Below are positions 740-16,205 of a stretch of 18,974 nt of DNA, one piece after another. A program made the position numbers and the translations under genes. The notes under the pieces were generated by a model, which was given only the letters and a program-made list of their open reading frames with translations, did no database searches and had not been told where the DNA came from. The stretch is from Calditerrivibrio sp. Its GTDB lineage: Bacteria; Chrysiogenota; Deferribacteres; Deferribacterales; Calditerrivibrionaceae. Each line of letters starts with the position of its first letter. Within the stretch, counting starts at the first letter, position 1. The stretch lies in NCBI GenBank assembly GCA_020217115.1, contig JAIWOA010000084.1, positions 1 through 18,974 of the forward strand, in the 5' to 3' direction.

Positions 740-2611
740 ATGTTAGCTATGTGGAAAAAGCTTTTTAAATACCTTAGCCCTTTTGAATTGGTTCTTGTGG
801 TTTCAATGCTTGTTATTCTTTTTATAAGTTTGATTATTTACATAGATAAAAAAAGTAATGAAAAGCTAAAGTTCTTTGTCTATAAAACTCAGGAAAAATC
901 TATTTTGAGGCTTATTTCTCAGATTGAGGATGAGCTTGCAAGGCAAGACTCTTTTTTGAATAAGATCTACTTTAATTACAATAGCAAACTTGATCATCTG
1001 TCTGGAAATCTTTTGATATTTGAAAATGGAGAGATCCTTTTTTCCAATGTAGATTCCAATAAAAATTATGTAATAAAAAATGCCATTACAAAATCTCAAG
1101 GTGTATTTTTTGCATCTGACAATGATATCTCAATCTTAGGCTCCTATATTTTGAAAGATGGGAGGATATTTGCTACATTTGTAAACCTTGAGAAGATAAT
1201 AAAGGAGTCTATCTTTGGTGAGAATATTTTGATAAATTTTCGTGATGGTTCAATTGTTCATGCTTCAGAATACAAAGATTTTTTTAATATTATAAGAAGG
1301 GATCTTACTAATAGACAGTTTTCAGTTATAAATGGTGGTGAGGAGATAGCTATTACCTCTGTGAAGTTTTATGACGATTTTATTATTTCTATCTATGCCC
1401 CTTTTAAATATTATTACTCTGGACTTGTTGATAAGGATGTTAGGATAGGTGTTCCAGCTTTTATTTTCGGTGTAGTTATACTAAGTTTGCTTTTTATAAT
1501 AAAGATGTCTGTAAATAGGTTTGTATCGGAAAAGGAGAAGTATGAAAAATTATTTCAGCTGGAGCATGAAAAATTTCAAAAAATAGTTCAGTCTATAGAT
1601 GAGGGGGTAAATCTTATAAGTAGCGACTATGATATTTTGTGGGGTAACGATTATATTACTAAAAAATTGCCTGATATAAAAGTTGGGAAATGTTACCATG
1701 AACTTACTGGCTTAAACAACAGGTGTAGTTTTTGTATGTTAGATAAAGTATTTAACGAGAAAAAGACTCAGAGCATTACAACAAAGGATTTTTTGAAGGG
1801 TTACCCGGGATTTTACGATGTCATATGGGTTCCGTTATTGGATGAGAAGGGGGAGGTTACATCCTGTGTTGAGATTATAAGAGACATTACTCCCATAGTT
1901 GAAATGCAGAATAAAATTATTCAGTCTGAAAAGCTTTCTGCCCTTGGTTTATTGGCAGGTGGTGTTGCCCATGAAATAAACAATCCACTTGTGGGTATTT
2001 TGAATATGTCACAGTTACTTGCAAGGAGATTTGAGGAAAAAAGTAAAGAGCGGGGAATGATAGATCTTATAATAGAAGCTGGAAAAGAGACAAAAAATAT
2101 AGTTCAAAGTCTTTTAGACTACTCAAGACAGGGAAGTGAAAAGATGGAGAAATTTGACATAAGGGAGTCGATCAATTTTGCCATAAAGATCTTTGGTAGC
2201 AGGATAAAGGATAAAAAGATAATTGTGGAAAATAGGATCGATTCCCCCATTTTTGTTAAAGCAAGTAAGGGGAAGATGCACCAAGTGTTTATAAATCTTA
2301 TAGGTAATTCCATAGATGCCATTGAAAGTAATGGCAGAATTATTCTTGAAAGTGAATCATCAGATGAAGTCACGAAAATAAAGGTTATCGATAATGGGAA
2401 AGGGATAAAGAAAGAGGATGCTGATAAAGTATTTGATCCATTTTTTACAACAAAAGAGGTTGGAAAAGGCACTGGGTTGGGTCTTTCGATCACTCAAGGG
2501 ATAATAAATGATCTGGGTTGGAGTATCAGTTTTCAGTCTGAGCCTGATCGTTTTACATGTTTTGAAATAAAAATTGTCAATTCAAGAAGTTTGGAGGCAC
2601 ATGATGGATAA
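740..2611 (+). CDS. Membrane sensor histidine kinase with PAS domain, partner of the downstream NtrC-type regulator
   Basis: This 623-residue inner-membrane kinase would autophosphorylate and pass phosphate to the regulator encoded next. Segments in order: a first membrane helix (about 14-34), an extracytoplasmic sensor of about 200 residues, a second helix (about 235-256), and a cytoplasmic PAS domain (about 278-385). The PAS domain carries a cysteine group at 318, 329 and 332. A HisKA domain follows, with GGVAHEINNPL and phosphoacceptor His411. The HATPase_c domain has its N box NLIGNSIDAI, DNGKGI, DPFFTTK and GKGTGLGLS. The HEINNPL type is typical of NtrB/DctB/AtoS kinases that work with sigma54 activators. 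The outer domain looks like a Cache-type ligand sensor by size and position only. ATG 740 and ATG 749 are both possible starts and neither has a good ribosome binding site. The stop overlaps the next gene by 8 bases. The ligand is unknown; context suggests a carboxylate. Confidence 0.9.
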   Translation: MLAMWKKLFKYLSPFELVLVVSMLVILFISLIIYIDKKSNEKLKFFVYKTQEKSILRLISQIEDELARQDSFLNKIYFNYNSKLDHLSGNLLIFENGEILFSNVDSNKNYVIKNAITKSQGVFFASDNDISILGSYILKDGRIFATFVNLEKIIKESIFGENILINFRDGSIVHASEYKDFFNIIRRDLTNRQFSVINGGEEIAITSVKFYDDFIISIYAPFKYYYSGLVDKDVRIGVPAFIFGVVILSLLFIIKMSVNRFVSEKEKYEKLFQLEHEKFQKIVQSIDEGVNLISSDYDILWGNDYITKKLPDIKVGKCYHELTGLNNRCSFCMLDKVFNEKKTQSITTKDFLKGYPGFYDVIWVPLLDEKGEVTSCVEIIRDITPIVEMQNKIIQSEKLSALGLLAGGVAHEINNPLVGILNMSQLLARRFEEKSKERGMIDLIIEAGKETKNIVQSLLDYSRQGSEKMEKFDIRESINFAIKIFGSRIKDKKIIVENRIDSPIFVKASKGKMHQVFINLIGNSIDAIESNGRIILESESSDEVTKIKVIDNGKGIKKEDADKVFDPFFTTKEVGKGTGLGLSITQGIINDLGWSISFQSEPDRFTCFEIKIVNSRSLEAHDG

Positions 2612-3947
2612 AATATTTGTTGTGGATGATGAGATATATACTCTGGAATTTTTTAGTGAATTGCTATCAAATGAGTTTGAAGTGTATAAATTTAAATCAC
2701 CAATTGATGCATTATCAAAGATGGATAAAATCTATCCTGACCTTGTTATATCGGATAATTTAATGCCTGAAATGTCTGGAAGTGAGTTTCTCGATATAAT
2801 GAACAGTGAGTATCCTGATATTACATTTATTATGATGACTGCCTATGGAAGCATAGATGCTGCAGTAGAGGCTATCAAAAAAGGGGCTTTTGATTTTATT
2901 ACCAAACCCTTTGATAACATTGATGAGCTTTTGATAAAAATAAAAAAGAGCATAGAAAATTCAAAATTAAAGACAAATTTGAAGATATTACAGGACAATA
3001 TCAATGAACTTTTTGGGATCTCTAATATTATAGCTAAAAGCAAAAAGATGGAGGATCTCCTTTCTGTAGTAAAAAAGATTTCTATGATAAATAGTAATAT
3101 CCTTATATTTGGTGAGTCAGGGACTGGTAAAGAGCTTATTGCAAGGGCAATTCACAATTTAAGCCCCAGAAAGAACAATCGTTTTCTTGCTATTAATTGT
3201 GCAGCTATACCGGAGACACTTGAAGAAAGCTTATTTTTTGGGTATGAAAAGGGGGCTTTTACAGGTGCAAATAGCAACAAAAAAGGGTATTTTGAGGAGG
3301 CTAATAATGGTACTATTTTTCTGGATGAGATAGGTGAGGCAAGTATTAATCTTCAGGCAAAGCTTTTGAGAGTTATCCAGGAAAGGACTGTTAAGAGGGT
3401 TGGCTCTTCTGAATCTATAAATGTTGATGTTAGAATAATTTCTGCAACCAATAGGGATCTTTTGAAAGAGGTTGAAGCCAAACAGTTTAGAAATGATCTC
3501 TACTATAGGATAAATGTAATTACCATAAAGATCCCTCCTTTAAGGGAAAGGTTGGAGGATATTCCATACCTTGTTGATTTTTTTATAAAAAAGTATTGTA
3601 AAGAGTTTAACAAGGGTGAAATAAAGGTTTCATCAGACTTTATGAAGGCTTTATACAGCCATTCATGGCCGGGAAATGTAAGGGAATTGGAAAACTTAAT
3701 TGAGAGAGCTGTGGCTTTTGTCGATGGGGATATTCTGAAAGTTGATCTGATAAATGATCAGATCTTTGGAGATATTGTTGATGGAGTTAATATTGACAGC
3801 TATAAAAATGCAAAGGAGAAATTTGAAGCTGAATATCTTCGTAAGCTCTTACTTGTATCAAACAACAATATAACAACTGCGAGCAAGATTGCTGGTATCG
3901 ATCCTGCAACAATACATAGAAAAATAAATAGATACAAAAATGGTTAG
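2604..3947 (+). CDS. NtrC-family sigma54-dependent response regulator
   Basis: This 447-residue cytoplasmic activator remodels sigma54 RNA polymerase with ATP once phosphorylated. The receiver domain (1-120) has the acidic pair at 8-9, phosphoacceptor Asp51 in LVISDNLMP, and the conserved lysine in TKPF. The AAA+ domain shows Walker A GESGTGKE from residue 170, the sigma54-contact loop GAFTGA at 217-222 and the Walker B region GTIFLDEIGE. Further on are the arginine-rich SATNRDL, FRNDLYYRINV and the WPGNVRELENL motif. A Fis-type helix-turn-helix ends the protein (TTASKIAGIDPATIHRKI). The start was set at 2604 because GGAGG at 2593-2597 lies 6 bases away and MDKIFVVDDE is the usual receiver beginning; ATG 2601 is an alternative. 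It overlaps the kinase stop by 8 bases and the next gene by 8 bases. The sigma54 promoter at 9338-9354 before dctP is a probable target. Confidence 0.93.
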   Translation: MDKIFVVDDEIYTLEFFSELLSNEFEVYKFKSPIDALSKMDKIYPDLVISDNLMPEMSGSEFLDIMNSEYPDITFIMMTAYGSIDAAVEAIKKGAFDFITKPFDNIDELLIKIKKSIENSKLKTNLKILQDNINELFGISNIIAKSKKMEDLLSVVKKISMINSNILIFGESGTGKELIARAIHNLSPRKNNRFLAINCAAIPETLEESLFFGYEKGAFTGANSNKKGYFEEANNGTIFLDEIGEASINLQAKLLRVIQERTVKRVGSSESINVDVRIISATNRDLLKEVEAKQFRNDLYYRINVITIKIPPLRERLEDIPYLVDFFIKKYCKEFNKGEIKVSSDFMKALYSHSWPGNVRELENLIERAVAFVDGDILKVDLINDQIFGDIVDGVNIDSYKNAKEKFEAEYLRKLLLVSNNNITTASKIAGIDPATIHRKINRYKNG

Positions 3948-4914
3948 AATTTTGTTTTTTATCTTTATTTTCTCTTTTAATATGGCTTACTGTGAGGTGA
4001 TAATACGATTTAGTCATGTCGTCAGTGATGATAGTCCAAAGGGTAAGGCAGTTCATTTTTTTAAAAATGATCTTGAAAAGAGTTCATCTGGTGAAATTAA
4101 AATTTTGATTTATCCTCAAGGGATATTGTTTGATGATATCCCTGTACTTGAAGCGCTAAAGACTGATGTTGTACAGATGGCTGCCCCAAGTTTTTCAAAA
4201 TTTAGCGGTAGGATAAAGGATTTTCAGGTATTTGATATCCCATATTTATTCAAAAATATAGATGATGTACATAATTTCTATGAATCTGAGCCAGTTAAAA
4301 TATTATCTAGGGAAGCTGAGAAGATTGGTATAAAGATAATAGCTTTCTGGGATAATGATTTTAAGCATGTCACTTGCAGTAGCAAACCTATAAAATATCC
4401 AACAGATATGAAAAATATGAAGGTAAGAAGTATGGGCAGCCCTATAATAAATAAACAGTTTTCTATCATGGGGGGTAAAGCCTTTACCTATCCATTTAAT
4501 AGCTTAAAAAATCTCCTTTCAGAGAAGATTGTTGATTGTCAGGAGAATACCTTTAACAATATATATTCTCAAAAGCTGCATCTTTATCAAAATTTTCTTA
4601 CGATCTCTTCCCATGGTTATCTTGGCTATGCTGTTGTCATATCAAAAAAATTCTGGGACCATTTACCTGACAGATATAGAACAATGATATTAAACTCCAT
4701 GAATAATGCCACTGAATATGAGAGAAAAATAAGTATGGAAAATAATGCACAGGATCTTTTCAGATTAAAGAAAAGTAAGTTGATAAATATATATGAACTT
4801 AGTGCAAGGGAAAAAGATGAATGGGAGAATTTTTTCAAACTCAGATACCCTTTATTTATAAGTTTATTGAGTGATAAAATGAGGGAAGAATTGAAGAAGA
4901 TGGGTATGATATGA
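3940..4914 (+). CDS. DctP-type TRAP substrate-binding protein encoded in the two-component operon
   Basis: This 324-residue periplasmic protein has a signal peptide (about 1-18, hydrophobic core ILFFIFIFSF) and a DctP fold. Visible DctP features are RFSHVVSDDSPKG near the mature N terminus, VLEALKTDVVQMAAPSFSKF, the ligand-binding arginine region MKVRSMGS with Arg163, and DCQENTFNNIY. It aligns along its length with the canonical DctP at 8318-9298 but is clearly more divergent. For example, CSSKPIKYPTDMKN stands where the other has NNKREIVKPEDAKG. The retained Arg163 and Glu-Asn pair suggest it still binds an organic acid. The ATG overlaps the regulator stop by 8 bases and has no Shine-Dalgarno sequence, so translation is probably coupled to the regulator gene. 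Co-synthesis with a kinase and regulator suggests a role in signal perception. A second transporter receptor is the main alternative. Confidence 0.88.
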   Translation: MVRILFFIFIFSFNMAYCEVIIRFSHVVSDDSPKGKAVHFFKNDLEKSSSGEIKILIYPQGILFDDIPVLEALKTDVVQMAAPSFSKFSGRIKDFQVFDIPYLFKNIDDVHNFYESEPVKILSREAEKIGIKIIAFWDNDFKHVTCSSKPIKYPTDMKNMKVRSMGSPIINKQFSIMGGKAFTYPFNSLKNLLSEKIVDCQENTFNNIYSQKLHLYQNFLTISSHGYLGYAVVISKKFWDHLPDRYRTMILNSMNNATEYERKISMENNAQDLFRLKKSKLINIYELSAREKDEWENFFKLRYPLFISLLSDKMREELKKMGMI

Positions 4915-5216
4915 GTTTATTTTTAGTTGGATTAATGATTTTTGGGGTTAGCAGATTGCTAAATTATTTCTTTTCTGTGGAAGGATTTTTGATTTCAAAC
5001 AATATATTTTTTCTGTTGAGTCTTTCCTTAATTATATACCCATTTTCTATGGGTAAAGGTTATAAAATAAATAGTAAATTTGTGAAATACAACATTACAT
5101 CATATGAACTGATAATAATGATTGTATTCTTTTCTATTCTGTTGATCTATAGAAATCATCTTATTATGTTTATATTTTTAATAATAAGTTATTTGTCATA
5201 TAGGAGAAAAATTTGA
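4911..5216 (+). CDS. Small four-helix membrane protein, DctQ-like by position
   Basis: This 101-residue protein is almost wholly hydrophobic, with four likely membrane segments (about 2-20, 27-46, 66-79 and 82-97) and a basic end YRRKI. DctQ proteins, the small TRAP membrane subunits, also have four helices but are usually about 150-180 residues; the partner at 7733-8254 has 173. I see no clear sequence match to DctQ, such as the conserved tryptophan-containing WAGE segment seen in the canonical copy. The identification rests on topology and on lying between DctP-like and DctM-like genes. Its start is an ATGA overlap with the previous stop, and its own stop overlaps the TTG start of the next gene. 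It may be a shortened DctQ that only scaffolds the large subunit, or an unrelated membrane protein. Confidence 0.6.
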   Translation: MSLFLVGLMIFGVSRLLNYFFSVEGFLISNNIFFLLSLSLIIYPFSMGKGYKINSKFVKYNITSYELIIMIVFFSILLIYRNHLIMFIFLIISYLSYRRKI

Positions 5217-6415
5217 TACTGTATATCATATTTGCATTTGTTTTGGTATTTTTTTCCTATCTTGGTTTTAGTATAAATACTATTTTAATGTTTATTGCAG
5301 TTATCTATGCATTAATCTCCGGCTTTACCCTTGATTCATCTATATTTGTTTTCTCAGAAAAATTTTATGAGATTATTTTTATGCCTGAAATAGTTGCTAT
5401 ACCATTTTTTGTTTTGAGTTCTGAGTTGCTCATAAACAGTGGAATAACAAAGAAATTTAAATGCACAATTTTTTATATATTTGGTAATACTATATTTGGT
5501 TTTATTCTTTATTCAATTTCTATTATGACAACTGCTACTACAAGTATGATTTTTAACAGTTCCTTTGAAACAGATTTTTCGACGGATGAATTTAAGGATG
5601 AAAAGGTATGTATAAATACACAATTCTTACTTTCATCCGTTAACTATGTTGCCCCTATATCGGTGCCTATAATTATCATGGCTTCTTTATTAAAGGTTTC
5701 ATTAAAGACGGTAGTTTTCTATTCAATATTGTTGTCTTTGTTCATACTTATAGCTTACTATCTGATTTTTTTGAAGGGGAAACTAAGGGTTAAAAACTCG
5801 GGAATATTTCTTTTCCCACTGGTGGTAATAGTGGGATATATGTTAATTTTCTATTCCTTAATGTTTTTAATGTCTTATCCAATAGATATAATAGCTATTA
5901 TCCTATTTTTTTATGTAATTGTCATTGTTTTAATATTTGATTTTAATAGATTCAAAGAGATACTTTACTTATCACTTGATAGATCGCTGATGAGATCAGG
6001 GATAATCATGGGGGTAGTTTACTTTATATCTATGCTTGCTTTTTTCCATATATACACATTTTCAAATAGTGAGATAATAAATTATCTTACACTTTCTTTT
6101 TCAGAAGGTTATTATATACTTATCATTATGTATGTAATAGCTTTTTTTATGTCGGAGATTATAGATCCTCTGGGAATTATTTTGATACTTTTTCCTATTT
6201 ATGATACACTGATTCAGAGTTATAATATAGATCGTTATATATTTATACTATCTTTTTCACTGTTTTTGTCCATGGGGCTCTTCAATAATATTTCAGAATT
6301 AATGGGTGAAAGGATAAGGGGAAAATTTAATATCCCATCATCAGCTGTTTATGAAACAATCTATCAGGTATATATATTTATATGTTTTATATCTTTTGGG
6401 ATATATTTTTTATAA
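5213..6415 (+). CDS. Divergent DctM-like TRAP large membrane subunit
   Basis: This 400-residue polytopic inner-membrane protein has many hydrophobic segments and aligns loosely with the canonical DctM at 6451-7731. EIVAIPFFVLSSELLINSG matches the ALMAIPLFILAGNFLSQGG region, and IIDPLGIILILFPI matches MEPSSIVMILAPLIFP. Hallmark motifs are changed. The GSSPATVAAIG region is replaced by TTATTSMIFN (106-115), and the C-terminal TPPVG by FNNIS (about 357-361). In DctM/SiaM proteins these regions contribute to sodium and substrate handling, so ordinary transport may be lost. The start is TTG at 5213 with AGGAG at 5202-5206, 6 bases away, overlapping the previous stop as TTGA. It closes the five-gene operon, followed directly by a hairpin at 6413-6439. 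It could be a transporter of unusual specificity or a membrane anchor for signalling. Confidence 0.75.
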   Translation: MILYIIFAFVLVFFSYLGFSINTILMFIAVIYALISGFTLDSSIFVFSEKFYEIIFMPEIVAIPFFVLSSELLINSGITKKFKCTIFYIFGNTIFGFILYSISIMTTATTSMIFNSSFETDFSTDEFKDEKVCINTQFLLSSVNYVAPISVPIIIMASLLKVSLKTVVFYSILLSLFILIAYYLIFLKGKLRVKNSGIFLFPLVVIVGYMLIFYSLMFLMSYPIDIIAIILFFYVIVIVLIFDFNRFKEILYLSLDRSLMRSGIIMGVVYFISMLAFFHIYTFSNSEIINYLTLSFSEGYYILIIMYVIAFFMSEIIDPLGIILILFPIYDTLIQSYNIDRYIFILSFSLFLSMGLFNNISELMGERIRGKFNIPSSAVYETIYQVYIFICFISFGIYFL

Positions 6416-6439
6416 GGATGGGTTTTTAGCCCATCCTTA
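6413..6439. terminator. Hairpin between convergent DctM-like and dctM genes
   Basis: TAAGGATGGG pairs perfectly with CCCATCCTTA (10 base pairs) around a 7-base loop. It begins inside the stop codon of the DctM-like gene and lies 12 bases beyond the stop of the canonical dctM on the other strand. No strong T tract follows on either strand, so termination efficiency is uncertain. The position between convergent operons supports a shared terminator. Confidence 0.55.
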
Positions 6440-6450
6440 AATTTGTATGA

Positions 6451-7731
6451 CTATCCGTAGATCAGATTTGGTAGCCATGTAGACAATATTGGTATATATG
6501 TTATTATTATCAATCCTATTAATAGTGCAAAAATCCAGGGAAGAGTTGCTTTTATAACCTCTTCTATGCTTTTCCCTGTGATACTTGATGAAACAAAGAG
6601 ATTTAAGCCAACAGGGGGTGTAAGCATACCCACTTCAATGTTAACAGTAATAATTACACCAAGGTGTATAGGATCTATCCCCAAAGTCATTGCAACAGGG
6701 AAAATAAGGGGAGCAAGAATCATAACAATACTTGATGGCTCCATAAAGTTTCCTGCTATTAAAAGAAGAATATTTACAAAAATAAGGAATGTGTATTTAT
6801 TAAAATTCATGTCAATAATCCACTGAGCTAAATTTTGAGGAATTTGTAGATAGGTGAGGACAAATGCAAATAGCATAGCATTGGCAATGATGAACATTAC
6901 CATTGCTGTAGTAGTTGCAGACATTTTTATTATATTTGGTATATCTTTCCATGTAATATCTTTGTAAACAAAAAGTGAAATAAAGAAGGCATACACAGCT
7001 GATGCTGCGGCAGCTTCAGTTGGAGTGAAAATTCCACCATAAATTCCTCCAATGACTATTACAATGACAAGCAATCCCCAAAAAGCATCCATTAAACTTC
7101 CAAGAATCTCCTTTAACGAAGCCATCTTTTCCCTTTTAAAACCTGCTCTTACTGCTGCAATATATGTTACCAGCATCAATCCACCACCAAGGAGCAGTCC
7201 CGGGATCACTCCTGCCATAAAAAGCTTACCTATAGACTGGTCAACTGTTACACCATAAACTATCATTACGATTGAAGGTGGGATAAGTATACCTAATGAA
7301 CCAGCACATGTTATTGCTCCTATTGAAAATTTATCATCGTAGCCAGCATTTCTAATTGCTCCCATCATAATAGAACCGATAGCAGCAACTGTAGCAGGTG
7401 ACGAACCACTTACTGCAGCAAATATTATACATGCAAAAATGGCTGACATGGGAAGACCACCTGGTAGATGACCAACCATAGCCCTTGCAAACCTTATTAT
7501 TCTTCTTGCTGCTCCACCCTGTGATAAAAAGTTACCAGCTAATATGAAAAGTGGTATTGCCATAAGTGCAAATTTATCTATTGAGGTAAACATCTTTTGT
7601 GGTATAACGAGTGTAGGCATTGTTGTGAAAAATATTATTACAATTGTGCTTGCTAATCCAAGTGATATGGCTATTGGCACTCCTATAAAAAGTAGAATAA
7701 ATAAAAGTCCAAAAAGAATTGCTGTGACCAT
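6451..7731 (-). CDS. dctM: TRAP transporter large membrane subunit (canonical)
   Basis: This 426-residue inner-membrane protein is the ion-coupled permease of a tripartite TRAP transporter. It shows the family signatures: FALMAIPLFILAGNFLSQGG (54-73), AVSGSSPATVAAIGSIMM (106-123), LGILIPPSIVMIVYG, TPTEAAAASAVYAF, the glycine and proline-rich NFMEPSSIVMILAPLIFP, and EVGMLTPPVGLNLFV with TPPVG at 371-375. Length and helix density are normal for DctM. Transport is driven by the sodium or proton gradient and needs the periplasmic DctP and the small DctQ subunit. It follows dctQ after a single base, with GGAG upstream of its ATG, so the two are translated together. It is much better conserved than the DctM-like protein at 5213-6415, and this is the working transporter of the window. 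Confidence 0.96.
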   Translation of the reverse strand: MVTAILFGLLFILLFIGVPIAISLGLASTIVIIFFTTMPTLVIPQKMFTSIDKFALMAIPLFILAGNFLSQGGAARRIIRFARAMVGHLPGGLPMSAIFACIIFAAVSGSSPATVAAIGSIMMGAIRNAGYDDKFSIGAITCAGSLGILIPPSIVMIVYGVTVDQSIGKLFMAGVIPGLLLGGGLMLVTYIAAVRAGFKREKMASLKEILGSLMDAFWGLLVIVIVIGGIYGGIFTPTEAAAASAVYAFFISLFVYKDITWKDIPNIIKMSATTTAMVMFIIANAMLFAFVLTYLQIPQNLAQWIIDMNFNKYTFLIFVNILLLIAGNFMEPSSIVMILAPLIFPVAMTLGIDPIHLGVIITVNIEVGMLTPPVGLNLFVSSSITGKSIEEVIKATLPWIFALLIGLIIITYIPILSTWLPNLIYG

Positions 7732-7732
7732 T

Positions 7733-8254
7733 CTAATGCTCCTTCATTACAAGATCATAGGAGAACTCTTCTGCAGGTATTTTTATGATCTTTATAATTT
7801 TAAGTAATATTTGATACGAGGCGACAATCATAGTTATTGGTACGCAAAGATAGATAATCCAGAATTGTATATGAAGATCTACTGAAACCTGTTCAAGTTC
7901 ATAGTTGAATTTAACGAAATCGTAACCCCATTTTATTAATATTAAAATGAAAATAAATACTATAGAAAGACTAAAAGTTAGTAATCTTTTAGCTGTTTTA
8001 GGTCTTAGCCTCTGTATGAGAGCTGTAACACCGAGATGCATACCGATTTTAAAACCATAGGCTGTTCCAAAAAGCACTGACCATATGAATAGATATGATG
8101 TAAGTTCTCCTGCCCAGGTCAAAGACATATTAAAAACATAACGTAAAACAACATTTATAAATGCTACAAATGTAGCAACACCCATCATTACTGACATTAT
8201 AAAAATATTAATTCTGTCTAATATATTATCGAATAATTCAAAAATTTTAAGCAT
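7733..8254 (-). CDS. dctQ: TRAP transporter small membrane subunit
   Basis: This 173-residue protein has the four-helix layout of DctQ: helices at about 17-37, 50-68, 89-109 and 130-150. It also has the characteristic MSLTWAGELTSYLFIWSVLFGTAYGFK stretch, with the conserved tryptophan and acidic residue, followed by HLGV. DctQ pairs with the large subunit and helps the loaded binding protein dock on the membrane. GGAG at 8261-8264 sits before the ATG. A stem-loop at 8278-8304 separates it from dctP, which suggests that dctP message is made or kept in excess over dctQM. It ends one base before dctM. Confidence 0.94.
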   Translation of the reverse strand: MLKIFELFDNILDRINIFIMSVMMGVATFVAFINVVLRYVFNMSLTWAGELTSYLFIWSVLFGTAYGFKIGMHLGVTALIQRLRPKTAKRLLTFSLSIVFIFILILIKWGYDFVKFNYELEQVSVDLHIQFWIIYLCVPITMIVASYQILLKIIKIIKIPAEEFSYDLVMKEH

Positions 8255-8277: not shown

Positions 8278-8304
8278 AGCCCCACCTCAAAAAGAGATGG
8301 GGCT
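8278..8304 (-). terminator. Intercistronic stem-loop between dctP and dctQ
   Basis: On the minus strand, AGCCCCATCTC pairs with GAGGTGGGGCT around a 5-base T loop. That gives 11 pairs including one G-U pair. The pairing is complete only in the minus-strand RNA, the direction in which dctP-dctQ-dctM is read. An interrupted T-rich stretch follows. It is best read as a partial terminator or a 3' end stabiliser of the dctP message, because dctQM have no other visible promoter. Confidence 0.65.
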
Positions 8305-9337: not shown

Positions 9338-9354
9338 AGCAATTAAAATGCCAA
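9338..9354 (-). promoter_or_regulatory. Sigma54 promoter upstream of dctPQM
   Basis: On the minus strand the sequence is TTGGCATTTTAATTGCT. It contains the invariant GG and GC exactly 10 bases apart, with TGGCA at -24 and TTGCT at -12, a near-perfect match to the sigma54 consensus. Transcription would begin about a dozen bases downstream, near 9327, leaving a short leader containing the dctP ribosome binding site at 9308-9312. It is the only convincing site of this kind found by reading the window. Confidence 0.82.
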
Positions 9355-9484: not shown

Positions 9485-9500
9485 ATTGCATTCTTGCAAT
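9485..9500. promoter_or_regulatory. Candidate upstream activator site (inverted repeat) for the dctP promoter
   Basis: ATTGCA and TGCAAT form a perfect 6-base inverted repeat with a 4-base centre, about 130-160 bases upstream of the sigma54 -12 element. That is the usual distance for an NtrC-type enhancer. A related half-site TTGCAA occurs at 9419-9424, and an AT palindrome TAATATATTA at 9455-9464. No binding motif is known for this regulator, so the role is inferred from symmetry and position. Confidence 0.33.
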
Positions 9501-10224: not shown

Positions 10225-11511
10225 ATGTTTTTAAAAAAAATGTTATTATTTCTAATGCTGTCAATTTCGTTAATTGTTGTAGGTTGTGGTGGTACGACTA
10301 CTAATGCTAATCAGGTAGCAAAACCTGAGGCAAAAGAGGAAAAACAGGTAAAACAGGAAAAACAGGTAAAACAGGAATCTGTAACACCTGCAGGAAAGTC
10401 TATTAAACAGATTATTGAGGAAGATAAGTTTGAAATTGTTAATTACGATTATTTGCAATCTAAATTAGGTGACAAGCTCAGAAAGTTTAGCAAATTGGTT
10501 GTTATCGATGCAAGACCAGAGAGGAGTTATCAGGTAGGGCATATACCAAGTGCCATAAATATACCTGATACTCATATTGAGAAGTTTTTCCCACAGCTTG
10601 ACCAATATAAGGTTTCAAAAGATACAGAGATCATTGTATACTGTGGTGGAGTTAACTGCATAAAAAGCTATAACGTAGCTAAATTCCTCAGGGAGAAGGG
10701 GTATAAAAATGTCAAAATATATCTTGAAGGTGACCCAGAATATATAACAAAGTCTTTTATGGAAATAAGTACCCCTTATGCTGAGAAACTCCATAAAGAA
10801 GGGGTATTATTTATTGATGCAAGACCAGAGCTTACCTACAAAAAGGGTACTATTCCAGGTTCCGTAAATATACCTGATACAAAATTTTCACAAAATCAGG
10901 AACCTTATATGAAGCTAATACCTGAAAATAAAGAGACAAAGATGGTTGTATTTTGTGGTGGTTATGAATGTGTAAAATCCCATATTGTGTCTGAGATTCT
11001 CTATCAAAAAGGGTACAAAAACGTTTTGGTTTATTCTGCAGGGGAACCTGAGTGGAAAGAACTTGGTAAGCCTATAGAGATACCTGGACAGGGTGGGGCA
11101 GCAGTTAAAAAGGACACCGCTGCAGCTGCTACTGGAGGAGCAACATCTGGGGATATTAAGTCTGGTAAAGATGAAGGTACAGTTGATAAAGAATTTTTTA
11201 AAAGTATCATGGATTCAAGACCAGAAAATATTGTAATAATAGATGTCAGGACTCCAGCAGAATTTCAGAATGGGCATGTAAATGGTGCTATAAATATCCC
11301 TGTTGATTATATGTACAAAAAAGATAAAGGTTGCGATTATATAACTCAACAGCTACCCAAAAATAAAAATATAATATTTATGTGTGCTACTGGGGCAAGG
11401 GCTGGAGAGATGTGGTTTGGATTAAAAGATGATTGTAACTATAATATGAAGGGTTTATATTTCCTTGATGCGAGGATAGATTATTCAACTGGTAAGCCAA
11501 TTGTAAAGTAA
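10225..11511 (+). CDS. Lipoprotein with three tandem rhodanese domains
   Basis: This 428-residue protein has a lipoprotein signal: a hydrophobic core and lipobox VVGC with lipidated Cys21. A Lys/Gln-rich tether (about 32-50) and three rhodanese domains follow. Domain 1 (about 80-175) has VIDARPERSYQVGHIPSAINIP and the active-site loop CGGVNC from Cys140. Domain 2 (about 190-285) has FIDARPELTYKKGTIPGSVNIP and CGGYEC from Cys244. Domain 3 (about 325-428) has IIDVRTPAEFQNGHVNGAINIP and CATGAR from Cys387. Rhodaneses carry sulfane sulfur on the first loop cysteine. Here the first two loops end in a second cysteine rather than the usual arginine. Facing the periplasm or outside, it could bind or transfer polysulfide sulfur, but the substrate is unknown. 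GGAGG lies 9 bases before the ATG. The gene is monocistronic, with its own promoter and terminator. Confidence 0.92.
   Translation: MFLKKMLLFLMLSISLIVVGCGGTTTNANQVAKPEAKEEKQVKQEKQVKQESVTPAGKSIKQIIEEDKFEIVNYDYLQSKLGDKLRKFSKLVVIDARPERSYQVGHIPSAINIPDTHIEKFFPQLDQYKVSKDTEIIVYCGGVNCIKSYNVAKFLREKGYKNVKIYLEGDPEYITKSFMEISTPYAEKLHKEGVLFIDARPELTYKKGTIPGSVNIPDTKFSQNQEPYMKLIPENKETKMVVFCGGYECVKSHIVSEILYQKGYKNVLVYSAGEPEWKELGKPIEIPGQGGAAVKKDTAAAATGGATSGDIKSGKDEGTVDKEFFKSIMDSRPENIVIIDVRTPAEFQNGHVNGAINIPVDYMYKKDKGCDYITQQLPKNKNIIFMCATGARAGEMWFGLKDDCNYNMKGLYFLDARIDYSTGKPIVK
10341..10376 (+). repeat. Two exact tandem copies of an 18-base unit in the lipoprotein tether
   Basis: The unit AAAACAGGTAAAACAGGA occurs twice back to back, and each unit is itself two near-identical 9-base halves. 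It encodes the lysine and glutamine-rich linker (KQVKQE repeated) just after the lipidation site, so copy-number change would alter tether length without breaking the frame. Confidence 0.9.
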
Positions 11512-11702: not shown

Positions 11703-12383
11703 ATGAAGCCATTGGAAAATCTACTTAATGAAATAAAAGTTCTGCTGGCAGAAATGACAGATAATGTAACAGATATGATATCTATGTGTATCAGAGCATT
11801 GGTAGAAAGAGAAAATGATACTGCAGACAAAGTGATCGACATGGATGAACATGTTGATGAGCTTGATAATAAGATTGAAGAGCTTTGTCTCAATGGGCTT
11901 GCTCTTTATGAACCGAAGGCAATAGATTTAAGGTATATCATTACTGCTTTAAGAATTATTACTGATTTAGAAAGGGTAGGGGATCATTGTGTAGATATAG
12001 CTAAGGAGATAATAAAATTAAATCAGATCCCGCCAATTAAACCTTATATAGATCTACCAAAGATGGCAGATTATTCATCTGAAATGGTTAAAGATGCCAT
12101 CAATAGTTTTTTTTCAAAAAACCATAAAGAAGCATTAAAGATAATTAGGAACGATGACTATATAGACAATCTCAATAATCAAATTCTTCGTGAGTTACTT
12201 ACATATATTGTTGAAGATTTTAGAAAAACAAAGGGTTGTCTGTCTCTAATATTTATCTCAAGAAGCCTTGAAAGGATCGCAGACCACGCCACAAATATAG
12301 CAGAAATGGTTTATTTCATGTCAAAAGGTGAGAATATAAGGCACAAAAACTATAACGATTTTGATGGGAATGATGATGAATAA
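11703..12383 (+). CDS. phoU: PhoU family phosphate-signalling protein
   Basis: This 226-residue helical cytoplasmic protein has the usual length and two PhoU repeats. The metal-binding ExxxD-type motifs appear as DLERVGDHCVDIAKEI in the first repeat and SLERIADHATNIAEMV in the second. PhoU normally links the Pst phosphate transporter to the PhoR kinase and keeps the Pho response off when phosphate is plentiful. GGAG at 11692-11695 lies just upstream of the ATG. Its stop overlaps the start of the following regulator gene by 8 bases, so the two are translationally coupled. No pst gene is present in the window, so the sensing partner must be elsewhere or the system may sense phosphate in another way. 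Confidence 0.95.
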   Translation: MKPLENLLNEIKVLLAEMTDNVTDMISMCIRALVERENDTADKVIDMDEHVDELDNKIEELCLNGLALYEPKAIDLRYIITALRIITDLERVGDHCVDIAKEIIKLNQIPPIKPYIDLPKMADYSSEMVKDAINSFFSKNHKEALKIIRNDDYIDNLNNQILRELLTYIVEDFRKTKGCLSLIFISRSLERIADHATNIAEMVYFMSKGENIRHKNYNDFDGNDDE

Positions 12384-13044
12384 AATTCTTGTAGTAGAAG
12401 ATGAAGAGTCTCTGAGGGAGCTTATATCTTTTAATTTGACAAAAGCAGGTTTTGATGTTGTAGATTCTGAAAATGCAAATGATGCTCTTATATTTATAGA
12501 GGAGATAACTCCAGATCTTATAATTCTCGATATTATGATGCCCGGACTTAAGGGTACACAATTTTTACAAATATTAAAGAGATCTCCAAAATATTCATCA
12601 ATACCTGTGATAATAATATCTGCAAGAAGCAGTGAGAGTGATATTGTGGATGGTTTGGAATTGGGTGCCGACGACTATATTACAAAGCCTTTTAGTATGA
12701 AGGTTCTCATTGCAAAGGTAAAAATACTATTGAGGAGAGTAAGTAAAAAAGAGGATAATGTAATTAACTACAAAGGTATATATGTAGACATTGACAAATA
12801 TAAGGTTTTTATTGAGGATAAGGAAATATCACTTACTTACAAAGAGTTTGAATTATTGTTATTTTTTTTGAAAAATCCTAAAAAAGTTTTTACCCGATCA
12901 CAGCTTTTGAGTAATATATGGGGTTATGATGCTGAAATATTTACCAGAACAGTTGATTCACATATCTCTTCACTTAGAAAAAAACTTGAGGATAAAGGTG
13001 AACTTATAAAATCTCTTCCAAAGGTAGGTTATGTATTGGAGTAG
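12376..13044 (+). CDS. phoB: PhoB-like OmpR-family response regulator
   Basis: This 222-residue DNA-binding regulator has a receiver with acidic Glu8-Asp9, phosphoacceptor Asp52 in LIILDIMMPG, and lysine in YITKPF. It is followed by a winged-helix OmpR-type effector (SLTYKEFELLLFFLKNP, SRSQLL-like TRSQLLSNIWGYD, RTVDSHISSLRKKLE, and an end VGYVLE). Several in-frame starts exist between 12361 and 12376. I chose 12376 because MNKILVVEDE is the standard beginning and the weak GGGA at 12366-12369 has proper spacing. The name rests on its place between phoU and a PhoR-like kinase and on the overall sequence; other OmpR members look similar. Confidence 0.85.
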   Translation: MNKILVVEDEESLRELISFNLTKAGFDVVDSENANDALIFIEEITPDLIILDIMMPGLKGTQFLQILKRSPKYSSIPVIIISARSSESDIVDGLELGADDYITKPFSMKVLIAKVKILLRRVSKKEDNVINYKGIYVDIDKYKVFIEDKEISLTYKEFELLLFFLKNPKKVFTRSQLLSNIWGYDAEIFTRTVDSHISSLRKKLEDKGELIKSLPKVGYVLE

Positions 13045-13050
13045 CATCAG

Positions 13051-14739
13051 ATGAAGTTATTTTTGAGATATTTCATCTTGATATCTATATCACTTATTAC
13101 ATTGATTTTGTTAGGTCTTTATTTTGTGGGTAGTTCAATATCAGAAACTGTTATTTCAGAGAAAAAGATGCTTTTGAAAAATTATAATAAGCTAATTCAT
13201 GTTGTTGCACCAAAAAAGTCAGATTTATCTATAGAAAACAATTATTTGAAAATTTTGGCAGAGAATCTTGAGATCAGGATAACGGCTATAGAAAAAGATG
13301 GTAGAGTATTTTACGACTCCACATTTTTTGATGATGTTTCTCTAAAAAATATAGAGAATCATCTCGGCAGAAAGGAAATTGATGATGCGATCTCTAAGGG
13401 TGAGGGAACTGATATCAGGGTTTCTTCAACGGTTGGTGTTAGCAGTCTTTATTATGCAAAATTAATAGATTCAGATTATGTTTTGAGAGTATCCTTTTCA
13501 TTTAGAAAGATTGAAAATTATATAGTAGATTTTAAGTACCATATAATTGCCATATTTACGATCCTTGTTACAGCAGTAATTGTGCTTTCCTATTATTTCT
13601 CCAAAAGACTTTCTCTGCCTGTAGAGAACCTAAACGATATGATTAATAAGATTGAAAAGGGTGATAATATAGAATTGGAAAATTATTATGTGACGAGTGA
13701 TGAGATATCAAAACTTATTTACAGGTTATATAATAATATGAATGCCAGAGAAAATGCACTCCTCGAAGAAAAAAAGAAGATGAATTTTATCCTTTCATCC
13801 CTAACTGATGGGGTTGCATTACTTACTGATAACTGGGTAGTTTTATATAGGAATGACAAGTATATTGAAATGTTTGGCAATGATGCCACCGATATTTTTA
13901 ATGAATTGAAGGATTTTGAAAGTCTAAAATTATTTAACGATCTTAAGCAAAAGGGTGACGGAAAGCATTTCATAAAATATAAGAATAAATTCTACGAAGT
14001 TATTTTAAAATCTTACAATAAGTATAAAATATTGGTTTTCCATGACTCCTCTGATCAGATGAGGTATCATGCCTTCAAAAGTGAATTAATAGCTAATATC
14101 AGTCATGAGCTTAAAACACCTGTTTCTATAATTATGGGCTACTCTGAAACACTAATGAATAGTGATATAGATGCTTCTACCAGAGAGAAATTTTCAAAAA
14201 AACTCTATGAATCTTCCTTAAGACTTGATAATCTTATTACAGATATAATACAGCTCCACTCCCTTGAGAGTTCTGGCAGAAATTTATTAGTGGAGAAGGG
14301 GATAAATATTGGTGAACTTAAACATGAGCTTGAGGAGATATACAAGGATTCTGTTAAAAATATAAGTTTTGCGTTCGATGATGCCTATGTGGGGGTACTT
14401 AAGGAGCATATTCTATCTATCTATAAGAATCTTATTGACAATGCCATAACATACTCTATGGGTGAAAATGTTTATGTAGGATTTAAAAAAGCTGGTGAAA
14501 AATTGATTCTTACCGTTGATGATGAAGGGCCAGTTATTTCAGATGATGAAAAGGGGAAAATTTTTGAAAGGTTTTACACCACTTCGAAATCAAGAAACAA
14601 GAAAAATTCAGGCACTGGTCTTGGACTTTCTATTGTAAAACATACATCAGAAATCTACAATGGTTATGTTGAATTAATAAAGGGGATTTATGGTGGCAAC
14701 TGTTTTAAGGTTGTATTAAGTGATAAACTATCATCCTAA
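13051..14739 (+). CDS. phoR: PhoR-like sensor histidine kinase
   Basis: This 562-residue inner-membrane kinase starts 6 bases after the regulator stop, with GGAG at 13038-13041. Segments in order: membrane helix (about 7-28), extracytoplasmic domain (about 29-164), second helix (about 165-187) and HAMP linker (about 188-238). A PAS domain follows (about 243-340). HisKA carries ISHELKTPVSIIMGYSETL with phosphoacceptor His352. The HATPase_c domain has N box NLIDNAITYS near 460, DDEGPVI, FERFYT and GTGLGLSIV. The layout of helix, outer domain, helix, HAMP, PAS and kinase is that of the Gram-positive and deep-branching PhoR type, which has a large periplasmic domain. The E. coli type lacks one. 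Its partner is the regulator just upstream. No terminator was seen after it. Confidence 0.88.
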   Translation: MKLFLRYFILISISLITLILLGLYFVGSSISETVISEKKMLLKNYNKLIHVVAPKKSDLSIENNYLKILAENLEIRITAIEKDGRVFYDSTFFDDVSLKNIENHLGRKEIDDAISKGEGTDIRVSSTVGVSSLYYAKLIDSDYVLRVSFSFRKIENYIVDFKYHIIAIFTILVTAVIVLSYYFSKRLSLPVENLNDMINKIEKGDNIELENYYVTSDEISKLIYRLYNNMNARENALLEEKKKMNFILSSLTDGVALLTDNWVVLYRNDKYIEMFGNDATDIFNELKDFESLKLFNDLKQKGDGKHFIKYKNKFYEVILKSYNKYKILVFHDSSDQMRYHAFKSELIANISHELKTPVSIIMGYSETLMNSDIDASTREKFSKKLYESSLRLDNLITDIIQLHSLESSGRNLLVEKGINIGELKHELEEIYKDSVKNISFAFDDAYVGVLKEHILSIYKNLIDNAITYSMGENVYVGFKKAGEKLILTVDDEGPVISDDEKGKIFERFYTTSKSRNKKNSGTGLGLSIVKHTSEIYNGYVELIKGIYGGNCFKVVLSDKLSS

Positions 14740-14810
14740 TTCTTTACATATTAAAAGATACTAAATTTACCTACCTTTTTAAATAATCTAACAATTTTAA
14801 GACATTTTTA

Positions 14811-14819
14811 TGTTAAACT
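14811..14819 (+). promoter_or_regulatory. Possible extended -10 promoter before the PIN-PhoH gene
   Basis: TGTTAAACT fits an extended -10 element (TG, one base, then TAAACT). The start would be near 14826, leaving a short leader with AGGAG at 14834-14838. No good -35 box is present. The gene could also be read through from phoR. Confidence 0.3.
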
Positions 14820-14843
14820 ATCGAAAACCTATCAGGAGTGTCT

Positions 14844-16205
14844 ATGAATAACAAAATATTTGTTTTAGATACAAACGTTATGCTTCACTCACCCAATTGC
14901 CTTGAAACATTTGACGATAATGATGTGGTTATACCTGCTGTTTGCATTGAAGAGCTTGATAAGTTTAAAAATATGTATGACTTAAAGGGTTTTTATGCAA
15001 GGGAATTTATTAGAAATTTTGAAAAGATAAGGGAAAATTTTGATGTATTAAATGGTATTTTGTTACCATCTAAAGGTAGGGTTTATATAAGATATCTTAA
15101 GAAAGATATACCTCTTCCATACGATTTTGAAGTGAATAAATCTGATAACCTTATTTTAAAAGTGGCTTTACAAACAAAAGATGAATTTAGTAGTGAGGTT
15201 ATTCTGGTAAGTAAGGATACTAACTTGAGGATAAAAGCTGGAATATTGGGGATAAAATCTGAGGATTACTACCATGATAAAAGTTCTAATAACTTCTTGA
15301 ATTATAATGATAGCCTGTTTGTAAAGGATGAAATAGTTGATCTATTTTACAAAAATGGCGAAGTGAGTGATTCTGTTTTGTTTGATATGGGGATTAGCCT
15401 TATGAATGGTAATAGAAAAAGGTATATACTTTTCAAATCGGATAGTAATGAGAAAAAAGGGGTTCTGGTAAAATATAATTACAGCAATAATAGTTACATA
15501 AAAATAGATAATTTTGAAAATTCCATTGGAATTATTCCAACAAATTATCAACAAAAGTTTTTCATTGATGCTCTATATGATAACAACGTAAAGATTATTT
15601 TTGCGATAGGAATTGCTGGGACAGGTAAAACTCTTTTGTCCATTGCATCTGGTTTGACTCAGGTTTTAAATAGAAAGTACAAAAAGCTTATTATAAGCAG
15701 ATCACCTGTTCCGATGGGTAGAGATATAGGTTATTTACCCGGTGATATAAACAACAAATTAGATCCATGGTTAAAACCTATTTATGATAACCTTGATCTA
15801 ATTATAGGTAATATTCAAAACAAATCCAATGATGAGAGATACGATGAAAAGATCTATAGTGACATTACCTTAGAATATCTAAGAAGTAGCAATTTGATAG
15901 AGGTTGAAGGGCTCACATATATCAGGGGCAGAACATTTCATAATTCATTTATCATAATAGATGAAGCTCAGAACTTGACTCCCCACGAGGTAAAAACTAT
16001 AATTACCCGTGTTGGTAAAAATTCAAAGATTATTCTCACTGGTGATATATATCAGATTGATAACCCATATGTGGATGAAAGAGATAATGGTTTGACCTAT
16101 GCAAGTGAAAAATTTAAGCAGGTTGATAGCGATCTTGCCGTTTCCGTTTACCTTACTAAATGTGAGAGAAGTGAAGTCTCCAAGATTGCTGCCAGTATCC
16201 TTTGA
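14844..16205 (+). CDS. PIN-domain PhoH family ATPase (PhoH2 type)
   Basis: This 453-residue cytoplasmic protein joins an N-terminal PIN nuclease domain (about 1-150) to a C-terminal PhoH ATPase domain (about 225-453). The PIN domain begins IFVLDTNVMLHSP, keeps acidic residues in CIEELDKFK, and has VSKDTNLRIKA near its end. The PhoH part has Walker A GIAGTGKT at 256-263, SRSPVPMGRDIGYLPGD, Walker B FIIIDEAQNLTPHEVK with Asp373-Glu374, and TGDIYQID. PhoH2 proteins of this layout are RNA-cleaving, ATP-dependent enzymes in some bacteria, and the family is often phosphate-regulated. The start is ATG 14844, since AGGAG at 14834-14838 is 5 bases away; a GTG at 14838 would overlap that site. Its place after phoU-phoB-phoR suggests a phosphate-starvation role, but this is context only. 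Confidence 0.92.
   Translation: MNNKIFVLDTNVMLHSPNCLETFDDNDVVIPAVCIEELDKFKNMYDLKGFYAREFIRNFEKIRENFDVLNGILLPSKGRVYIRYLKKDIPLPYDFEVNKSDNLILKVALQTKDEFSSEVILVSKDTNLRIKAGILGIKSEDYYHDKSSNNFLNYNDSLFVKDEIVDLFYKNGEVSDSVLFDMGISLMNGNRKRYILFKSDSNEKKGVLVKYNYSNNSYIKIDNFENSIGIIPTNYQQKFFIDALYDNNVKIIFAIGIAGTGKTLLSIASGLTQVLNRKYKKLIISRSPVPMGRDIGYLPGDINNKLDPWLKPIYDNLDLIIGNIQNKSNDERYDEKIYSDITLEYLRSSNLIEVEGLTYIRGRTFHNSFIIIDEAQNLTPHEVKTIITRVGKNSKIILTGDIYQIDNPYVDERDNGLTYASEKFKQVDSDLAVSVYLTKCERSEVSKIAASIL

Follow-up and report, generated by a model that had tools for sequence, protein, structure and literature searches.

We analysed a stretch of 18,974 nucleotides of DNA from Calditerrivibrio sp. (contig JAIWOA010000084.1 of assembly GCA_020217115.1; "the window"), in which a two-component regulatory system shares an operon with three genes laid out like a tripartite ATP-independent periplasmic (TRAP) transporter. 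These three genes, P2Q2M2, are discussed here as a putative receptor. The operon comprises five genes on the + strand in the order HK-RR-P2-Q2-M2, and the successive open reading frames (ORFs) overlap by 8, 8, 4 and 4 nucleotides (nt), in agreement with the initial annotation, which had described a kinase, an NtrC-type activator and DctP-like, DctQ-like and DctM-like genes overlapping end to start. HK (740..2611) encodes a histidine kinase with two membrane spans, a dCache-like periplasmic domain, and PAS, HisKA (43.9 bits) and HATPase (HATPase_c, 73.8 bits) domains, assigned from Pfam and a structural model. RR (2604..3947; a further in-frame ATG is found at 2601) encodes an NtrC-type sigma-54 activator with a receiver, a sigma-54 AAA+ domain (237.9 bits) and a Fis-type helix-turn-helix, identified by Pfam, NCBIfam and its GAFTGA motif; this motif, through which such activators contact sigma-54, is present in 10 of 11 RR orthologues.

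The remaining three genes occupy the places of dctP, dctQ and dctM. P2 (3940..4914) is a DctP-type solute-binding protein that matches the DctP family with 261 bits (cut-off 23.4). Q2 (4911..5216) is a membrane protein of 101 residues at the DctQ position, in which no similarity to DctQ was detected by Pfam or profile-profile comparison, and M2 (5213..6415) is, by profile, model and motif count, a diverged protein of the DctM fold that lacks the canonical Na+-site and twin-proline residues. In the genome of the window (1.79 Mb on 171 contigs), six DctM genes pass the Pfam cut-off, and M2 is not one of them.

A predicted terminator-like stem-loop of 12 pairs (6413..6439) separates this operon from a convergent one on the - strand. 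The latter is a complete canonical dctPQM, as had been annotated: M1 (6451..7731, 426 bits to DctM), Q1 (7733..8254, 90 bits to DctQ) and P1 (8318..9298, 360 bits to DctP), with a stem-loop between P1 and Q1 (8278..8304, - strand). Upstream of P1 are a sigma-54-type promoter, TGGCATTTTAATTGCT (9338..9353, - strand), 39 nt 5' of the gene, and a palindrome, TTGCATTCTTGCAA (9486..9499), the presumed binding site of RR.

Distribution of the operon in Deferribacterota

Searches were done in 50 genomes of Deferribacterota and in a wider set of 384 genomes, with a maximum of four candidates scored per genome. The M2 alignment matched 16 of the 50 phylum genomes at E ≤ 0.001, and full-length M2 (E < 1e-120) was found in 11 only; the remaining matches were short and weak and lay on canonical DctM. 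The 11 carriers belong to four families and comprise all four genomes of the window's own genus, all three of g7, two of three of g2 and both of g8, and their M2 proteins are 26-52% identical to M2 of the window. A search of the 384 genomes returned the same 11 carriers and one weak match (G284), which was rejected as an M2 outside the phylum: with its TPP motif and a DctP and DctQ of its own next to it, this protein is a canonical DctM. Two scans of a collection of genome contigs for the M2 family gave no match in the first and, in the second, only two records of metagenome-assembled genomes, apparently among the 11.

The order RR-P2-Q2-M2 is kept in all 11 carriers. HK lies directly 5' of RR in nine of them and at another site of the genome in the remaining two (G001 and G002). 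The sensor region of HK is present in one copy in each carrier and in none of the 39 other phylum genomes. The P1 orthologue (62-87% identity) is confined to the same 11 of 50 genomes, and five further genomes have a DctP at 30-35% identity. Thus, P2Q2M2 is genetically associated with the kinase and with the target transporter: HK, P2, M2 and the P1 orthologue form a set that is present in every one of the 11 carriers and in none of the 39 others, and the carriers include two genomes with an unlinked HK and two with an unlinked P1. In families f1 and f7, P1Q1M1 is adjacent and convergent; in f2, some 3.4 kb separate it from HK, and in f8 it is unlinked. One genome that is 88% complete (G018) lacks M2, HK and P1 alike. 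In another (G022), the contig holds only the final 142 codons of P1, and this incomplete P1 was dropped from the P1 counts and from the DctP tree. That tree (33 rows) has long branches and was used solely to ask whether P1 and P2 each group together, which they do, with supports of 98/99.

The initial annotation had proposed to look for the same gene order in other genomes, and it recurs in these 11, accompanied in every case by a canonical TRAP operon. No homologue without the regulators was found among them: the activator adjoins P2Q2M2 in 11 of 11 genomes, and the kinase is encoded in 11 of 11.

Conservation and loss in M2, Q2 and P2

M2 scores below the family thresholds for DctM (Pfam, 13.5 bits with a cut-off of 23.8; TIGR00786, 22.8 with a cut-off of 268), and 10 of the 11 M2 proteins match DctM at E ≤ 0.1, the best at 1.7e-8. 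An AlphaFold2 model of M2 (pLDDT 82) has SiaM of Photobacterium profundum (7qha_B) as its first structural match, with a TM score of 0.72, and the M2 sequence profile retrieves the same chain at E 7e-12. In the SiaQM transporter of this organism (PpSiaQM), Na1 is bound by the carbonyls of S103, S106, G145, V148 and P150 and Na2 at G325, G366, T369 and M372, a twin-proline motif stands beside each Na+ site, and the mutants S106-S108A and T369A retain about 3% of transport (PMC9971032). The corresponding Na+ sites of HiSiaQM are described in PMC10942642. Six positions of M1 (G147, P152, G327, T371, P372 and P373) align to G145, P150, G325, T369, P370 and P371 of PpSiaM; each is present in 20-21 of 21 canonical DctM proteins and in none of the 11 M2 proteins. 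The canonical set consists of the 11 M1 and 10 others of 380-480 amino acids, with two fused DctM of the window genome (L003 and L005) excluded by length. M2 thus has the SiaM fold in common with PpSiaQM and differs from it in lacking, in 11 of 11 orthologues, these Na+-site and twin-proline residues. As judged from the sequences, M2 has retained the elevator fold and lost most of the cation machinery.

The TRAP set next to the kinase had been called degraded-looking, and this description does not hold. M2 is full-length in all 11 carriers and has 25 invariant columns of its own, and in three close species pairs the ratios of non-synonymous to synonymous substitution rates (dN/dS, Nei-Gojobori method) are 0.07-0.15 for M2, 0.13-0.20 for Q2 and 0.03-0.20 for P2; the canonical set has 0.02-0.08 (M1), 0.05-0.25 (Q1) and 0.02-0.10 (P1). 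With full-length M2 everywhere and values of 0.07-0.20 for M2 and Q2, the idea of degraded pseudogenes is rejected. Over a longer distance, divergence is much faster in M2 and Q2 than in their canonical counterparts. Compared with the two f8 genomes, M2 of the window is 26-28% and Q2 13-20% identical, and M1 is 76-77% and Q1 70-72% identical. M2 and Q2 therefore look like proteins that are under purifying selection yet released from the constraints of transport.

Q2 had been described as a four-helix DctQ-like protein. None of the 11 orthologues matches a Pfam family, Q2 of the window also has no NCBIfam family, and profile-profile comparison found no similarity to DctQ; a crude scan predicts 3-4 hydrophobic segments, and 3 in canonical DctQ. 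The identification as DctQ was dropped, as the label comes down to gene position. The junction between P2 and Q2 is unusual too. Where Q2 has a standard start (four genomes), its overlap with P2 is 1-4 nt; in the seven others (L028-L030, L034-L037) there is no ATG, GTG or TTG at the junction (CTG in two, ATA in three and ATT in two). In those seven, the reading frame of Q2 continues upstream within P2, in one constant relative frame, and translation would start at CTG, ATA or ATT or further in; there may be unusual start codons or a coupling by termination and reinitiation. A frameshift fusion of P2 and Q2, which the missing start codons had suggested, was set aside, given that a basic loop and tail of Q2, judged by eye, suggest an inside N-terminus and that P2 is periplasmic.

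All 11 genomes have a predicted stem-loop between P1 and Q1, with differing sequences and energies of -15 to -26 kcal/mol (no shuffle control). A stem-loop after the gene of the binding protein is a common means to produce binding protein in excess. None is possible between P2 and Q2, where the genes overlap, and this difference suggests that P2 is produced at close to 1:1 with its membrane partners.

P2 is the best conserved protein of the three. Across the 11 orthologues, 68 of its 324 positions are invariant, and 48 of these carry the identical invariant residue in the ten complete P1. R163 is among the 48, and from the sequence we presume it to be the ligand arginine, in the position where TRAP binding proteins have an arginine that binds the carboxylate; a HGYLGY stretch becomes GFLGY in the two P2 of f8. 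P2 looks able to bind a ligand. This is probably a C4-dicarboxylate or a similar organic acid, because the closest solved structures of both P1 and P2 are DctP chains, several of which are named C4-dicarboxylate-binding (4ovs, 4mx6, 9dsy). For 4ovs, the structure nearest to P1 and P2, a literature search gave no paper on its ligand, and no ligand is claimed here.

Two other explanations of P2Q2M2 have to be weighed against these data. The set could be a working, unusual transporter, for example of high affinity or with another coupling ion, that merely shares an operon with the regulators. All three parts are under purifying selection, P2 is intact, and M2 has retained the elevator fold and an invariant acid (D318) at the substrate site, all as expected of a transporter. 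Against this stand the six Na+-site or twin-proline residues that are gone in 11 of 11 M2, the fall to about 3% transport in PpSiaQM T369A and S106-S108A (PMC9971032), a Q2 that is unrecognisable as DctQ, a P2 that is not set up for excess production, and a canonical set that is always present alongside; we regard such a transporter as quite unlikely. Alternatively, P2 alone could be a co-sensor of HK, as BctC is for BctE in Bordetella (PMC5812351), with Q2 and M2 as an anchor or a slowly eroding remnant. The better conservation of P2 compared to M2 and Q2 fits this idea, but an eroding M2 is hard to reconcile with its full length in 11 genomes of four families, a dN/dS of 0.07-0.15 and 25 invariant columns, and this explanation appears very improbable.

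The promoter of the canonical transporter

All ten readable P1 promoters have a sigma-54-type site 35-45 nt 5' of the start codon, with scores of 25.0-27.5 out of 28.5; a control of 1000 shuffled stretches of 350 bases had its 99% point at 23.5 and a top score of 26.5. For thirteen regions 5' of HK or RR, the scores were 14-22. In all ten genomes, those of f8 with their unlinked P1 included, the palindrome TTGCANNNNTGCAA likewise lies no more than 350 bp from P1. The copies at P1, relative to all copies in the genome, are 1/3 in the window genome (G000), 1/1 in G001, 1/2 in G002, 2/4 in G003, 2/4 in G004, 2/3 in G009, 2/5 in G010, 1/4 in G011, 1/3 in G016 and 2/4 in G017; summed over the ten genomes, 15 of 33 copies are at P1, while chance placement would give about 0.006. 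G022 has seven copies, and its P1 promoter lies beyond the contig. No copy of TTGCANNNNTGCAA was found in the retrieved loci of the HK operon, except at a neighbouring P1.

The transporter operon thus has both a sigma-54 promoter and a conserved upstream site, to which RR presumably binds, in all ten genomes. Because both elements are at P1 and neither precedes HK, the regulated operon appears to be the canonical transporter, with the signalling operon under different control; this is the pattern expected of a receptor and its target. In PMC12316311, Deferribacteres are named for sigma-54 control of flagellar genes, and the word TRAP is absent from the main text.

Eight of the 18 palindrome copies of the ten carriers that are not at P1 were inspected: seven are inside ORFs of at least 336 amino acids and one (L112) is intergenic. 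These copies were rejected as further targets, as no sigma-54 match lies within 1 kb of any of the eight. A control pattern read backwards was abundant in some genomes, so only palindrome positions were used. This backward pattern, AACGTNNNNACGTT, occurs 158 times in G001, 76 times in G010 and 21 times in G017, vs 0-9 times in most others, and is perhaps a repeat family such as CRISPR.

Further along, the window encodes a protein that has three rhodanese domains and begins like a lipoprotein (10225-11511, + strand; signal judged by eye), and a phosphate-type regulatory block of consecutive PhoU, OmpR-type regulator, histidine kinase and PIN-PhoH genes (11703-16205, + strand).

The kinase and a putative TRAP-derived receptor

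In the model of HK (pLDDT 78), two spans flank the periplasmic domain, whose best matches are dCache folds (Foldseek, E 7e-7 to 3e-4, TM about 0.3-0.56), DctB included. In the alignment of the 11 HK orthologues (A4, in which residue 1 corresponds to position 749 of the window), the periplasmic domain (76-225) has Y222 as its sole invariant position, and N100 is nearly invariant. Invariant residues of HK are concentrated instead where the first span ends on the outer side (D33, K35, S36 and K39) and in the cytoplasmic helix that follows the second span. Because a single periplasmic position of HK is invariant vs 68 positions of P2, a conserved pocket is discernible in P2 and none in HK. HK could nevertheless sense the ligand itself with its dCache domain, like DctB, which is among the matches of the model, and P2Q2M2 would then be an accessory activity switch, comparable to DctA and DcuB of Escherichia coli, which determine the state of DcuS (PMC5703999). 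We consider this unlikely, given the near absence of invariant residues from HK 76-225 and given that DctA works as a transporter, which M2 looks unable to do. Two further features of HK were observed: the alignment has a three-cysteine pattern (C-x12-C-x2-C) in the PAS region, possibly a metal, haem or redox site, and the kinases of f2, f7 and f8 (L031-L037) are longer by about 100 residues, which follow the first PAS region and are absent from the kinases of the window's own genus.

We favour, as probable rather than established, that P2Q2M2 is a former TRAP transporter set that now controls HK as a receptor and no longer transports, and that HK and RR switch on the real dctPQM. It is favoured because the genes co-occur, because M2 has lost its sites while fold and selection are kept, because P2 shares 48 invariant residues with P1 while the periplasmic domain of HK has one invariant position, because a stem-loop is predicted between P1 and Q1 and none is possible at the P2-Q2 overlap, because the promoter elements are found at P1 and not before HK, and because kinase signalling that depends on a binding protein is known from BctC. 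In this mechanism, ligand-loaded P2 would dock on Q2-M2 in the membrane, and M2 would pass the docking state, without transport, to the membrane spans or the periplasmic domain of HK. HK would then alter the phosphorylation of RR, and RR would bind TTGCANNNNTGCAA and activate the sigma-54 promoter of dctPQM. The initial annotation had suggested a receptor or flux sensor rather than a bulk transporter. The genome comparisons, the losses in M2 and the preservation of P2 speak for the receptor; a flux sensor is disfavoured, because flux would need the Na+-site motifs that M2 has lost.

Several observations weigh against a receptor. The carriers share descent, so that 11 genomes do not equal 11 independent cases. 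The TTGCANNNNTGCAA pattern was derived from these same promoters, which share ancestry, and 34 of the 39 non-carrier genomes hold at least one copy of the palindrome somewhere. M2 has retained the first proline and the serine of site 1 in 11 of 11 orthologues, a glycine at the place of G366 in 9 of 11, a Ser/Thr-rich tip of the first hairpin and the invariant D318, opposite E329 of PpSiaM, a substrate-site position; these features may leave room for residual or odd transport. The dCache-like domain of HK, with its match to DctB, could bind the ligand itself. Finally, the receptor role as such (interaction, binding and signalling) is inferred from sequences and models.

Known systems offer partial precedents, mainly BctC/BctE, UhpC/UhpB and DctA/DcuS. 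In the tripartite tricarboxylate system BctC/BctDE of Bordetella pertussis, the binding protein BctC is required for the signalling via BctE that turns on the transporter (PMC5812351), but BctC belongs to another family and serves the transporter itself, whereas here the binding protein is a separate, diverged one, encoded in the signalling operon along with a membrane pair of its own. Also in B. pertussis, a DctP near BvgAS-controlled operons is kept and expressed despite seemingly non-functional membrane partners (PMC5812351); those membrane parts are described as mutated, and here they are intact, selected and in one operon with kinase and activator. In E. coli, UhpC interacts with UhpB as a transporter-like membrane receptor of a sensor kinase (PMC5703999). 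DctA or DcuB sets the kinase state of DcuS for C4-dicarboxylates (PMC5703999), but DctA transports and DcuS has the ligand site, while M2 lacks the motifs for transport and P2 is probably the detector. The SLC5 transceptor CbrA of Pseudomonas couples a transporter fold to a histidine kinase (PMC13022988) in one polypeptide of the SLC5 and STAC type; here, no transporter domain is fused to the kinase, which has two spans around a periplasmic domain, and the genes are separate and of the TRAP type. UhpC is a single protein of the major facilitator type, in contrast to the three-part, TRAP-derived set with a periplasmic binding protein described here. In the titles and abstract openings of the open-licence literature, no TRAP set is described as a receptor, and the available part of a TRAP review mentions no TRAP-derived receptor. 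We therefore liken P2Q2M2 in its presumed mode to UhpC or BctC and assign it to no described family.

There is, in our view, an even chance that a complete tripartite secondary transporter was copied and made into a receptor dedicated to its own transport relative, with P2 as the detector and an elevator-fold subunit as the membrane relay to a two-span kinase. If so, the docking step of a TRAP transporter would be read out as a signal by a three-part receptor. A nutrient transporter would have taken on a receptor role in genomes that also encode its working relative, and the eleven carriers would supply natural variants for comparison; whether a kinase can sense a binding protein that docks on a TRAP membrane domain while nothing is transported would become directly testable. 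Such a case would also caution that an annotation as a TRAP component does not guarantee transport, and it would provide a candidate regulon, a sigma-54 site together with TTGCANNNNTGCAA, for dicarboxylate-type uptake in Deferribacterota.

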